64,000 bases of DNA from Microbacterium sp. Root180 (GTDB lineage: Bacteria; Actinomycetota; Actinomycetes; Actinomycetales; Microbacteriaceae): assembly GCF_001428485.1 (NCBI RefSeq), contig NZ_LMHS01000002.1, forward strand, positions 196,415 to 260,414. The letters run 5' to 3'. Shown one piece after another: positions 42,481 through 48,038 of the stretch. Within the stretch, counting starts at the first letter, position 1. The number at the start of each line of letters is the position of its first letter. Made by a program: the position numbers and the translations under genes. Under the pieces are notes generated by a model, which was not told the DNA's origin, searched no databases, and was given only the letters and a program-made list of their open reading frames with translations.

Positions 42481-42507
42481 AGACGCCGACGCACAGCTCG
42501 TACTCGA
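42481..42507. repeat. Left attachment site, displaced glnA tail
   Basis: These 27 bases match the glnA 3' end at 46616-46642 in 24 positions: AGACGCCGA, a 3-base mismatch, then 15 identical bases at 42493-42507. Read on the minus strand the stretch would code [11 protein letters not shown] and a stop, against EYELYFGV in GlnA. It is the mark of integration in the end of glnA. The next 190 bases carry only the island arm repeats. Confidence 0.75.
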
Positions 42508-42543
42508 CAGGCATGATTGCAAGTAGTCGCGGGCGATAGAGAT

Positions 42544-42558
42544 CCGCGTGATTCCGCG
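42544..42558. repeat. Island-end repeat CCGCGTGATTCCGCG, left copy
   Basis: Identical to 46591-46605. The left copy begins 37 bp from the left 15-bp core and the right copy begins 37 bp from the right core. Both lie in the same orientation. Confidence 0.7.
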
Positions 42559-42605
42559 GGTTTCGCGCCTCAGGTTGATGGACGGTGATTGCGAGGAGTC
42601 GAGGC

Positions 42606-42633
42606 TCTTGCGGACTGGCCGCGGACTGAGCGG
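42606..42633. repeat. Paired GCGGACTG boxes, left island end
   Basis: A 28-bp block holding GCGGACTG at 42610-42617 and 42621-42628. It matches 46545-46572 in 26 of 28 positions. Candidate integrase arm-type binding sites. Confidence 0.65.
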
Positions 42634-42636
42634 TAG

Positions 42637-42873
42637 TCAGGTGGGAATCACGGCGCCCCACGCTTGGAGGACGAGACCAACCACAGCGAACGCACCTGCC
42701 TACACCAGCGCATGCCGAGTCTCGTTCCGCGACTCGGTGTCTTGCTCAGTCCAGCGCTTGTCGTTCTCGCCCCATTTGCCGCGCCATACTCGGGCGAGGC
42801 TGAAGAGCGCGAGGCGCAATGCCACGAGTTCCAGTAGTCCACCAGCCAACGCCAACCCTTGAGCGAGAGTCAT
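42637..42873 (-). pseudogene. Small membrane protein with in-frame TAG
   Basis: An island gene. The open part (42700-42873) codes 57 residues: a hydrophobic helix ([24 protein letters not shown]) and a charged tail, RGKWGENDKRW onward. A TAG at 42700-42702 interrupts the frame, and coding-like sequence continues for 20 codons with a second helix (AGAFAVVGLVLQAWGAVI) to a TGA. Either a two-helix protein has decayed or the 57-residue form is the product. The ATG follows TAGTGT plus 6 nt, a normal host promoter layout, so it may still be expressed. No homologue recognised. Confidence 0.55.
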
Positions 42874-42879
42874 GTGTGG

Positions 42880-42885
42880 ACACTA
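42880..42885 (-). promoter_or_regulatory. -10 hexamer TAGTGT of island membrane protein (leaderless)
   Basis: TAGTGT plus CCACAC then ATG 42873 on the minus strand. The same hexamer drives the transporter at 11487. Confidence 0.5.
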
Positions 42886-42928
42886 CTGTTCCTCGCTTCT
42901 CCGGGTAACCCCGATTCGGGGCTCGCGC

Positions 42929-43057
42929 TCAGGCGTCACTGTGGATGAACAGCAGCTGGCACGACCCGCACACGAAGCCCGGCGGGGAGTCGCGCAGCCT
43001 GCTCGAAGATCCGCTGGTTCGAGGCGCTACGTCTGGGGACTTCCGCTTCTGGGTGCG
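42929..43057 (-). pseudogene. Zinc-ribbon-like remnant downstream of a TGA
   Basis: In the frame of the 115-residue gene but after its TGA (43058-43060), 42 sense codons continue to a TGA at 42929-42931. They have high third-position GC (about 83 percent by eye count) and end PPGFVCGSCQLLFIHSDA, a CxxC motif typical of small zinc proteins. No start codon is available in this frame, so it is a fragment or a readthrough extension. A rival 41-codon ORF overlapping the TGA as ATGA has weaker codon bias. Confidence 0.4.
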
Positions 43058-45625: not shown

Positions 45626-45629
45626 CACG

Positions 45630-46474
45630 CTGAACCGAGACCACGGGCGACAGGCGGAAGTGCACCTGCGGCGCATTGTCGACAGTTTCGGTGTCTACGA
45701 GCTCGGCGCCGTGCGACCCTCCGATGTGCGCGCATGGATGAGCGAGTTGAACGCTGAAGGGCTGGCCGCATCAACCCGGTACGCCTTGCACGCTCGCCTG
45801 AAGCACATCCTCGACGACGCCGCCCACGACGGACTCATAGTCCGGAACCCTGTCGGACGTCGCACGAGCCCCGGGTGTCGGGAAGCAACGTCCCTACGTG
45901 GCGACCACGGCGCAGATCTGGGCGCTGCATGACGCGATGCCGGAAGGGATGCGCCCCAGTGTGCTCCTTGGCGCGTTCGCGGGTCTGCGGGTAGCGGAAC
46001 TGGTCGCACTCCGCACGAGTGACGTTGACTTCAGGCGCGGCAGCATCTCCCCAGCGATCCAGACCCGCTCGAGTCACTGAAGACGGACATGAGCCGCACG
46101 CCAGTTCCGATCCCGCCGGACCTCGCGCTCGAGCTCGCGCGGGTGCCGCAGGCGTACAAGTCGCCGACGCTGATTTTGTCGGTGTCTTCGGGCGTCCGGT
46201 CGCGCCCTACACGTTCGAAACGGCATTCCGTCGAGCGCGAGGGACCGTTGGCGGTTTGCCTGAAGGGTTCCGCGTTCACGACCTGCGGCATTACTTCGCG
46301 TCGCTGCTGATCGCGTCAGGGCTCGACGTGAAGACCGTACAGACACGCCTCCGCCACTCGTCGGCGAAGACCACCCTCGACACCTACGGGCACATCTGGC
46401 CAGACCGTGACGACTCGACGCGCGCCGCGGTGTCCGAAGCGTTCGCCACGCGGCCTCTCGCCGTGGGGGAGTAG
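45630..46474 (+). pseudogene. Tyrosine recombinase (integrase), frameshifted
   Basis: A degraded phage-type integrase. The core-binding domain (LRRIVDSFGVYELGAVRPSDV) is in one frame, AGLRVAELVALR with the first catalytic Arg in a second, PIPPDLALELAR in a third, and HDLRHYFASLLI to LDTYGHIW with the His-Arg and nucleophile Tyr in a fourth segment. Frame changes fall near 45882, 46061 and 46180. The N-terminal arm-binding domain is lost next to the nuclease gene. All catalytic residues survive but not in one protein, so the island is probably immobile. Confidence 0.85.
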
Positions 46475-46489
46475 GCCTCTTGCCGCACG

Positions 46490-46526
46490 AGAAGAGCCCC
46501 GCCGCGTTGTACGATGGGGCTCTTCT
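46490..46526 (+). terminator. Terminator after the integrase remnant
   Basis: An 11-bp stem AGAAGAGCCCC with GGGGCTCTTCT around a 15-nt loop. Confidence 0.7.
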
Positions 46527-46544
46527 GCTGTGCTGGAACAGGAT

Positions 46545-46572
46545 TCTTGCGGACTGTCTGCGGACTGAGCGG
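46545..46572. repeat. Paired GCGGACTG boxes, right island end
   Basis: 26 of 28 positions match the left block at 42606-42633, in the same orientation. The boxes are at 46549-46556 and 46560-46567. Confidence 0.65.
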
Positions 46573-46590
46573 CCTTGATAGGCCATTCTG

Positions 46591-46605
46591 CCGCGTGATT
46601 CCGCG
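46591..46605. repeat. Island-end repeat CCGCGTGATTCCGCG, right copy
   Basis: Identical to 42544-42558 and in direct orientation, close to the glnA stop codon. Confidence 0.7.
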
Positions 46606-46613
46606 ACTCTTGG

Positions 46614-48038
46614 CTAGACGCCGAAGTACAGCTCGTACTCGAACGGGTGAGGACGCGCCGCGATCGGCTTGATCTCGTTCTCGATCTTGTACTCGATCCA
46701 GGTCTCGATCAGCTCGGGCGTGAACACGCCGCCGGCCAGCAGGAACTCGTGGTCGGCCGCGAGGGCGTCGAGCGAGTCGAGCAGCGAGTTCGGCACCTGG
46801 GGGATGTTCTTGGCCTCCTCGGGCGGGAGCTCATAGAGGTCCTTGTCGACGGGCTCGTGCGGCTCGATGCGGTTCTTGATGCCGTCGAGGCCGGCCATCA
46901 GCTGCGCCGCGAAGGCGAGGTACGGGTTGCCCGAGGCATCCGGCGCGCGGAACTCGATGCGCTTGGCCTTGGGGTTGGAGCCCGTGATCGGGATGCGGAT
47001 GGCCGCCGATCGGTTTCCGGCCGAGTAGACCAGGTTGACGGGAGCCTCGTAGCCCTTGACCAGTCGCTTGTACGAGTTGATCGTCGGGTTGGTGAACGCC
47101 AGCACGGCCGGCGCGTGGGCCAGCAGGCCGCCGATGTACCAGCGGGCGGTGTCGGACAGGCCGCCGTAGCCCTTCTCGTCGTAGAAGAGGGGCTTGCCGT
47201 CGAGCCACAGCGACTGGTGCGTGTGCATGCCCGAGCCGTTGTCACCGAAGAGGGGCTTCGGCATGAAGGTCGCCGTCTTGCCCCACTGGTCAGCCGTGTT
47301 CTTGACGATGTACTTGAACTTCAGGATGTCGTCGGCCGCGTGCACCATGGTGTCGAAGCGGTAGTTGATCTCCTGCTGACCACCGGTGCCGACCTCGTGG
47401 TGCGAGCGCTCGAGGATAAAACCGGCCTCGATGAGCTTCAGCGTGATGTCGTCGCGCAGGTCGGCCGTCTTGTCGACCGGGCTGACCGGGAAGTAACCGC
47501 CCTTGTACGGGGTCTTGTTGGCGAGGTTTCCGCCCTCTTCCTCGCGACCGGAGTTCCAGGCGCCCTCTTCGGAGTCCACGCTGTAGAAGCTCGAGTTCTG
47601 CTTCACCTCGAAGCGCACGTCGTCGAAGATGTAGAACTCGGCCTCGGGGGCGAAGAACGCGGTGTCGGCGATGCCGGTGGAGGCGAGGTACTTCTCTGCC
47701 TTCTTCGCGACCTGACGCGGGTCCTTCGAGTAGATCTCGCCGTTGCGCGGGTTGTAGATGTCGAAGACCATCACGAGGGTCTTCGCCTCGCGGAACTGGT
47801 CGAGGTACCCCGTCGACACGTCGGGGATGAGCTGCATGTCGGACTCGTGGATGTTCGCGAACCCGCGGATCGAGGAGCCGTCGAACAGCTGGCCGACCGT
47901 GAAGAACTCTTCGTCGACGGTCGAGGCCGGGATGTTGAAGTGCTGCTGAACACCAGGAAGATCCGTGAAACGGATGTCGAGGAACTTGACGTCCTCGTCC
48001 TTGATGAACTTGAGCACCTCGGATGAATCTTTGAACAT
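46614..48038 (-). CDS. glnA: Glutamine synthetase type I, adenylylatable
   Basis: A 474-residue GSI-beta glutamine synthetase, the main ammonium-assimilating enzyme, active as a dodecamer. It has the beta-grasp [12 protein letters not shown], the Glu-rich metal site [28 protein letters not shown], the latch [10 protein letters not shown] and the adenylylation loop DLYELPPEE with Y402, the GlnE target. ATG 48038 has GGAG 6 nt upstream; longer in-frame starts lack support. Its stop lies at the border of the genomic island. Confidence 0.97.
46616..46642. repeat. Right attachment site inside glnA 3' end
   Basis: The partner of 42481-42507: 15 identical core bases at 46628-46642. It codes the last residues of GlnA, so the element restored the gene end when it inserted. 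Confidence 0.75.

Follow-up and report, generated by a model that had tools for sequence, protein, structure and literature searches.

The window, a stretch of 64,000 nucleotides of Microbacterium sp. Root180 (contig NZ_LMHS01000002.1, positions 196,415 to 260,414), carries at the 3' end of glnA, the glutamine synthetase gene, an island of 4.1 kb that lies between two glnA tails. The final 27 bases of glnA recur in direct orientation at the far border (coordinates in Table 1), a direct repeat of the target gene end being present at both borders of the island. The two copies are identical at 25 of the 27 positions and share a perfect 15-base run (ACAGCTCGTACTCGA); with up to three mismatches allowed they are the only two copies in the 64 kb, and 0.00 are expected from 100 shuffles. 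An earlier note, made from the letters of this DNA, had described the repeat; its coordinates and 15-base perfect core are borne out, while its count of 24 matching bases of 27 was wrong. It had read the codons correctly: the present end of glnA is EYELYFGV followed by a stop and the displaced copy is EYELCVGV followed by a stop. The target reading frame and the end of the product are preserved in the window, and all 56 glnA ends read in loci of the genus fit the pattern E-Y/F-E-L-Y-F/Y-G/S-V.

The island holds a broken integrase gene, one long intact gene and about 1 kb without recognised genes. The integrase remnant noticed in the earlier note is confirmed: homology to residues 80-343 of intact relatives is broken into pieces spread over three reading frames, and residues 1-79 are unmatched in the window except for a single weak alignment (31%), which is gapped and extends into the adjacent gene. 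The window thus has no intact integrase with arm-binding and catalytic domains, as relatives such as those in genomes G036, G067 and G079 do. The intact gene (the cargo gene hereafter) has 706 codons in its longest reading and is the sole long intact gene of the island. Two GCGGACT-N4-GCGGACT pairs, candidate arm sites of the integrase, are the only two in the 64 kb (0.00 expected). The earlier note mentions neither these pairs nor the 15-base repeat and the strong hairpin past glnA listed in Table 1. The search for relatives of the left 1 kb of the island gave scattered short tblastx pieces only, which we took as noise, and no Pfam match to a relaxase or transfer gene was found among the island open reading frames (ORFs) scanned. 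The G+C content of the island is 65.5% versus 69.2% for the window, which is weak evidence alone, because 4.1-kb stretches of the window span 65.0-72.6%. Integration into a tRNA gene was rejected, as the three tRNA genes of the window lie more than 16 kb away.

Table 1 Coordinates of the island, its attachment (att) sites and the target gene within the window
Feature	Position	Strand	Remarks
glnA, target gene, glutamine synthetase	46614..48038	-	
Current glnA tail = right attachment site (attR core)	46616..46642	-	reads EYELYFGV + stop; empty-site alignment
Displaced native glnA tail = left attachment site (attL core)	42481..42507	-	reads EYELCVGV + stop; flank to its left matches empty sites
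Element-supplied hairpin downstream of glnA, predicted terminator	46485..46535	-	-30.9 kcal/mol, shuffle z -7.25; the other 6 elements have one too
Native hairpin, now displaced; predicted former terminator of glnA	42425..42480	-	shuffle z -5.33; matches stretch beside glnA in empty sites
Left repeat pair GCGGACT-N4-GCGGACT, candidate integrase arm site	42610..42627	+	six other elements have it at the same position
Right repeat pair GCGGACT-N4-GCGGACT, candidate integrase arm site	46549..46566	+	
15-base repeat CCGCGTGATTCCGCG, left copy, possible accessory att sequence	42544..42558	+	similar string on left in G036, G067
15-base repeat CCGCGTGATTCCGCG, right copy	46591..46605	+	
Tyrosine integrase gene, broken	45648..46453	+	PF00589; residues 80-343 in pieces over three frames; N-terminus missing
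Intact cargo gene, secreted-looking protein	43505..45625	+	three CWB2 stretches; sub-threshold GmrSD_C-like region

Empty sites and related elements in Microbacterium

A search for the left junction covered 366 Microbacterium genomes. With the island removed, the joined flanks align to genome G305 with 95.8% identity over 707 bp and to eight further loci (the best left-flank matches) with 88-91%, and the alignments are gapless at the junction. The comparison with island-free relatives, proposed in the earlier note, gave a single glnA tail in all nine relatives with an empty site (about 3.1 kb fetched for each) and none with both copies. In G305 a hairpin follows the end of glnA, and the matching hairpin of the window now adjoins the displaced tail. 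Together with the displaced tails of six other elements (see below), the empty sites strongly support the claim of the earlier note that integration took place at the glnA 3' end and that the element supplied a new end to the gene. Its expectation that the aldo-keto reductase gene and glnA would be adjacent in relatives did not hold: among 149 genomes a close homologue of the reductase is present in 27 others, in none of them within 300 kb of glnA on the same contig, and the locus of G305, the nearest empty relative, contains glnE, two small genes and glnA but no aldo-keto reductase gene. The aldo-keto reductase was rejected as an empty-site marker on both counts.

In the window a regulator gene (helix-turn-helix protein with an MLTR_LBD domain) and the aldo-keto reductase gene occupy 40403-42379, between two small genes and the old glnA terminator; G305 keeps the small genes without this pair, which is a separate gain or loss. 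Odd right junctions were seen at L097 (G144), L098 (G081) and L099 (G080), where glnA ends in TAG and the GC-rich junction is unlike the usual terminator context. No integrase piece was found in the 19.9 kb fetched for each of these three, and the junctions are possibly scars of lost elements.

When the intact integrase of G079 was compared with 149 genomes, all seven matches of at least 55% identity, including the remnant in the window (60% over 93 residues), were at the glnA 3' end, and none of the sixteen matches of 40% or less was within 40 kb of glnA on the same contig. The 366 genomes gave 17 integrase matches of at least 50% and 54 of at most 40%; as at most 5 candidates were scored per genome, the low-identity counts are lower bounds. 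Sixteen of the 17 adjoin the glnA 3' end, 15 with glnA inside the 1.5-kb flank and one (G079) 1.7 kb away, behind a transposase gene. From the low-identity group 25 of the 54 were fetched and none has glnA in its flank. Four of the 17 are decayed or partial (those of the window, G341, G228 and G342). The island had been taken as the result of a single event; it is instead one copy of a widespread lineage at the glnA site, and the search for integrases beside glnA 3' ends suggested in the earlier note succeeded both for these 16 of 17 and for 70 of the 80 loci of the wider scan described below.

The displaced glnA tail is the far end of the elements in G007, G036, G067, G079, G093, G111 and the window, at distances of 10.1, 14.4, 14.6, 20.6, 10.1, 16.4 and 4.1 kb, respectively. 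Outside the window there are seven displaced tails, two of them in G036, and all have kept ELYFGV with its stop; that of the window alone reads ELCVGV, and we interpret the difference as drift in a relic of greater age. All seven elements have GCGGACT-type pairs, with a period of 11 bp, on both sides: the left pair is 114-136 bases away from its core and the right pair precedes its core by 39-71 bases, the second repeat of the left pair being GCGGACC in G067 and G093. A strong hairpin lies in the element past glnA, and another beside the displaced tail, in all seven; this comparison used the best 45-base windows and had no shuffle control, the shuffle z values in Table 1 having been obtained separately for the two hairpins of the window. 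For G036 and G007, folding of two stretches yielded z values of about -0.8, but these stretches did not include the hairpin located by the best-window scan. The hairpins are predicted terminators of glnA transcripts. The two displaced tails of G036 (L088, L087) lie 14.4 and 30.4 kb from glnA, with no second integrase piece of the clade between them; their presence suggests that this site was used twice in succession. The G036 element also encodes, close to its left end (L087:5261-6232), a protein with a sigma-70 region 4 match above the cut-off.

The G036 element has matches to capsid, portal, terminase, excisionase-like, replication and integrase proteins. Capsid and terminase matches are present also in G067, G079 and G111, and a portal match in G067 and not in G079 or G111; head genes are found in four of the six other elements (10-21 kb). 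The 10.1-kb element of G007 has integrase, repressor-like, HNH and replication matches, to which that of G093 adds small-terminase and tape-measure matches. No named phage with an integrase at least 60% identical was found among 50,697 records, and the attR DNA compared with phages gave three weak Pseudomonas phage matches only.

An integrase lineage at glnA beyond the genus

Named genomes were scanned with an alignment of six glnA-sited integrases, which yielded 80 loci. In 70 of these glnA is in the flank, always convergent with the integrase and in 55 cases within 150 bases of the integrase stop; as the scan used two peptide patterns taken from glnA-sited integrases, the 70 of 80 describes that clade and not integrases at large. 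According to the tree labels the glnA-sited integrases span 14 families, all actinobacterial, among them Microbacteriaceae, Micrococcaceae, Geodermatophilaceae, Intrasporangiaceae, Demequinaceae, Mycobacteriaceae and Streptomycetaceae. The GCGGAC pair was found in 20 of the 24 loci (from the 70) with junctions examined and is altered in L120, L142, L149 and L156. A copy of the tail on the same strand, 10-40 kb off and on the expected side, occurs in six of eight genomes tested; G367 has a same-strand copy at 89 kb only, and the tail of G371 is outside the coverage of the pattern.

Before tree building, duplicates (L040, L041, L043, L045), long, short or doubtful rows (L057, L058, L060, L061, L062, L143, L145, L150, L160, L164, L175, L183, L184, L327), L059 and all translations shorter than 250 residues were dropped; among the dropped rows L150, L164, L175, L183, L184 and L327 are at glnA and L143 and L160 at other genes. 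In the resulting tree 72 integrases stand on one side of a branch (support 100/100) versus 15 other Microbacterium integrases. This clade has 66 members at glnA and six at other or unassigned sites, and the site label needs four changes. A second tree that kept most of the dropped rows gave a clade of 73 rows (Shimodaira-Hasegawa approximate likelihood ratio test, SH-aLRT, 99), 65 at glnA and 8 without glnA in the flank. Three Nocardia loci (L170, L172, L181) carry clade members that face a different gene, one for cytochrome c assembly, at its 3' end; here the address has changed within the clade. In two Herbiconiux loci (L127, L134) the integrase frame extends 58 bases past the glnA stop on the opposite strand, and the att core would thus code for both proteins; smaller overlaps of integrase and glnA occur in L123, L125, L126, L141 and L146.

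Viral contigs were scanned for the repeat pair, which gave 95 stretches. In three of seven contigs inspected (L191, L299, L307) an integrase 57-69% identical is accompanied by a glnA tail with its stop, placed between pairs 186-196 bases apart. Structural matches among the scanned proteins are portal and terminase in L191, tape-measure and minor tail in L299, and portal and capsid in L307. The window shares with these three the layout of a glnA tail between repeat pairs. No terminal repeats were found in the viral stretches examined, so the contigs may be incomplete. A glnA tail flanked by repeat pairs is what the attachment site of the unintegrated element (attP) should look like.

One phage-integrase lineage has probably been held to the last glnA codons across Actinomycetota, from Microbacterium to Mycobacterium and Streptomyces, with attP as a portable gene end, made up of codons, stop and terminator, that is flanked by the GCGGACT repeat code over most of this range; a few branches, such as that of the three Nocardia, would have moved to the end of another gene.

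Origin of the island

We propose, with a probability of about 80%, that a mobile element, in all likelihood a small prophage, was inserted by a tyrosine integrase at the last codons of glnA, that its gene end replaced the native one, and that the island is what is left of it. In sequence, the attachment site of the lineage carries the last 6-8 glnA codons and a stop, with GCGGACT-type pairs on both sides. Recombination between the element core and the chromosomal glnA end, to which the anatomy points, would give the gene the codons, stop and predicted terminator of the element, and would move both the native tail and its hairpin to the opposite end of the insertion. The interior of the window copy may later have been lost or replaced and the integrase may have decayed, both att sites with their repeats being retained. 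The repeats, empty sites, neighbouring genes, conserved repeat pairs, attP-like sites and broken integrase are seen directly in the sequences, and from them we infer the recombination, the order of decay, the arm binding, the termination and the loss of mobility. With its integrase broken, the island can probably no longer move by itself. Since no phage structural gene is left in the island, its prophage ancestry is deduced from the integrase, the att sites and the hairpin.

Several observations weigh against this proposal. No terminase, portal or capsid gene was found among the island ORFs scanned, and the elements of G007 and G093, both about 10 kb, have no head-shell gene among the proteins scanned, which means that not every element is a full phage. 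The integrase of G159, at 50% identity, sits at the end of another gene, and ten of the 80 scan loci have no glnA in the flank: besides the three Nocardia loci, others face enoyl-CoA hydratase-like, glyoxalase-like or membrane-transport genes, the flank of L145 is only 122 bases long, and the sites of L176, L178 and L189 are unassigned. The 15-base pattern used for the distant tail copies gave 9-22 matches per genome, and matches in the control as well. Among the viral contigs, L236 has a 56% identical integrase and pairs 175 bases apart with no glnA tail, and L244 has pairs 421 bases apart with no glnA tail between them. Lastly, in G300 (L355, L357) the stretch that separates glnA from glnE encodes a protein homologous to the cargo (51% over 725 aligned positions), in the same relative orientation and with no element features around it, so that the cargo may be part of the locus or of another type of island.

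This cargo homologue beside glnA raises the alternative that the ancestor was a satellite or small island which belonged to the same integrase lineage but had been without phage head genes from the start, with the cell-wall-binding protein as its true cargo. The mere 4.1 kb of the island would suit such an origin, as would the element of G007, in which integrase, repressor-like and replication genes are packed into 10.1 kb with no head gene among the scanned proteins; satellites of the phage-inducible chromosomal island (PICI) type would have such a set of integrase, regulator and replication genes with few or no structural genes and would depend on a helper, and the island in the window has only its broken integrase to compare. 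However, the locus of G300 contains no integrase piece, repeat pair or displaced tail. A close homologue of the cargo occurs in 13 other genomes of the 366, and for 12 of these no position at glnA was seen: of the 11 loci fetched only that of G300 is beside glnA, the other ten have no glnA in a flank of about 1.5 kb, and two were unfetched. No cargo match was found in the element sequences compared, and we regard a satellite origin as unlikely. Somewhat better placed, though still short of even odds, is the idea that the prophage had already decayed when an unrelated insertion brought the cargo gene into its remnant. The cargo gene ends at 45625 and the integrase homology begins at 45648 with residue 80, so that a junction there would have removed the N-terminus of the integrase. 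The family, moreover, is chromosomal and widespread: the protein search returned at least 4077 relatives, the named ones mostly from Microbacterium and Agromyces, and the cargo is a putative cell-wall-binding protein of this common chromosomal family. Against a later insertion, neither insertion-sequence ends nor a target duplication were found at the cargo borders in the repeat listing of the window, the one search made for them.

A chance repeat or a local duplication with no integration at all could be argued from the two positions at which the copies differ and from the want of an intact integrase, but it is ruled out for practical purposes by the shuffles, with 0.00 matches expected, and by the gapless empty-site alignments; the same arrangement with an integrase is found, furthermore, in 15 other genomes of the genus and in many other genera.

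Comparison with known systems

The glnA 3' end was found in all 149 genomes of the genus searched and lies beside such integrases in 14 families; an integrase tied to it could therefore offer one ready route to single-site integration in genera for which different vectors are needed at present. The lineage is also a natural experiment in which dozens of lineages exchange the codons, stop and terminator of an essential gene without loss, the attachment site keeps pace with the host codons, and an integrase clade changes its address.

glnA is not named as an attachment site in the titles and abstracts found; the target table of TIGER was outside the search and may list it. Neither glnA nor glutamine is mentioned in the available portions of PMC10654092, PMC9934374, PMC12884075, PMC9862828, PMC9030533, PMC10111431 and PMC4701971, and in those of PMC5133609, PMC3102099 and PMC11464305 glnA is a typing or stress gene and not an attachment site. 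The earlier note held that integration into protein genes is much rarer than into tRNA genes, which is wrong in general: in the TIGER/Islander survey 43.4% of islands are in coding sequences versus 33.8% in tRNA or tmRNA genes (PMC12424338).

The nearest phage matches to the terminase, the capsid-protease fusion and the tape-measure protein of the G036 and G067 elements are small siphoviruses of 14-17 kb (Rhodococcus RRH1, Arthrobacter BlueFeather and Microbacterium PensacolaC28), with capsid and terminase 27-37% identical in the best rows. BlueFeather differs in that it is described as lacking lysogeny genes (PMC7954295). Small prophage regions of Curtobacterium (PMC9862828), a genus of the same bacterial family, are likewise temperate-looking siphovirus regions with tyrosine integrases, and the main text of that paper, as far as available, mentions neither glnA, glutamine nor an att site. 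The dusA/trmE islands (IMEVchUSA3, SGI1) share the principle that the element rebuilds the gene it splits, but the dusA elements replace the 5' end, are plasmid-mobilised and are not phage-like (PMC8409611). It is established that elements can integrate at the 3' ends of conserved protein genes and leave the product intact (PMC4701971). Streptococcal integrative and conjugative elements do so at housekeeping genes such as guaA, rplL, rpsI, lysS and rpmG, and they have in common with the glnA elements a tyrosine integrase and direct repeats containing the gene 3' end. They differ in using other genes, in belonging to another phylum and in being conjugative, and glnA is unmentioned in the main text as far as available; their integrases group by insertion locus, as does the glnA lineage. 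Integration at the ends of protein genes is known and by no means rare; no glnA site kept across Actinomycetota turned up in the literature searched, and the breadth of this one address is unusual.

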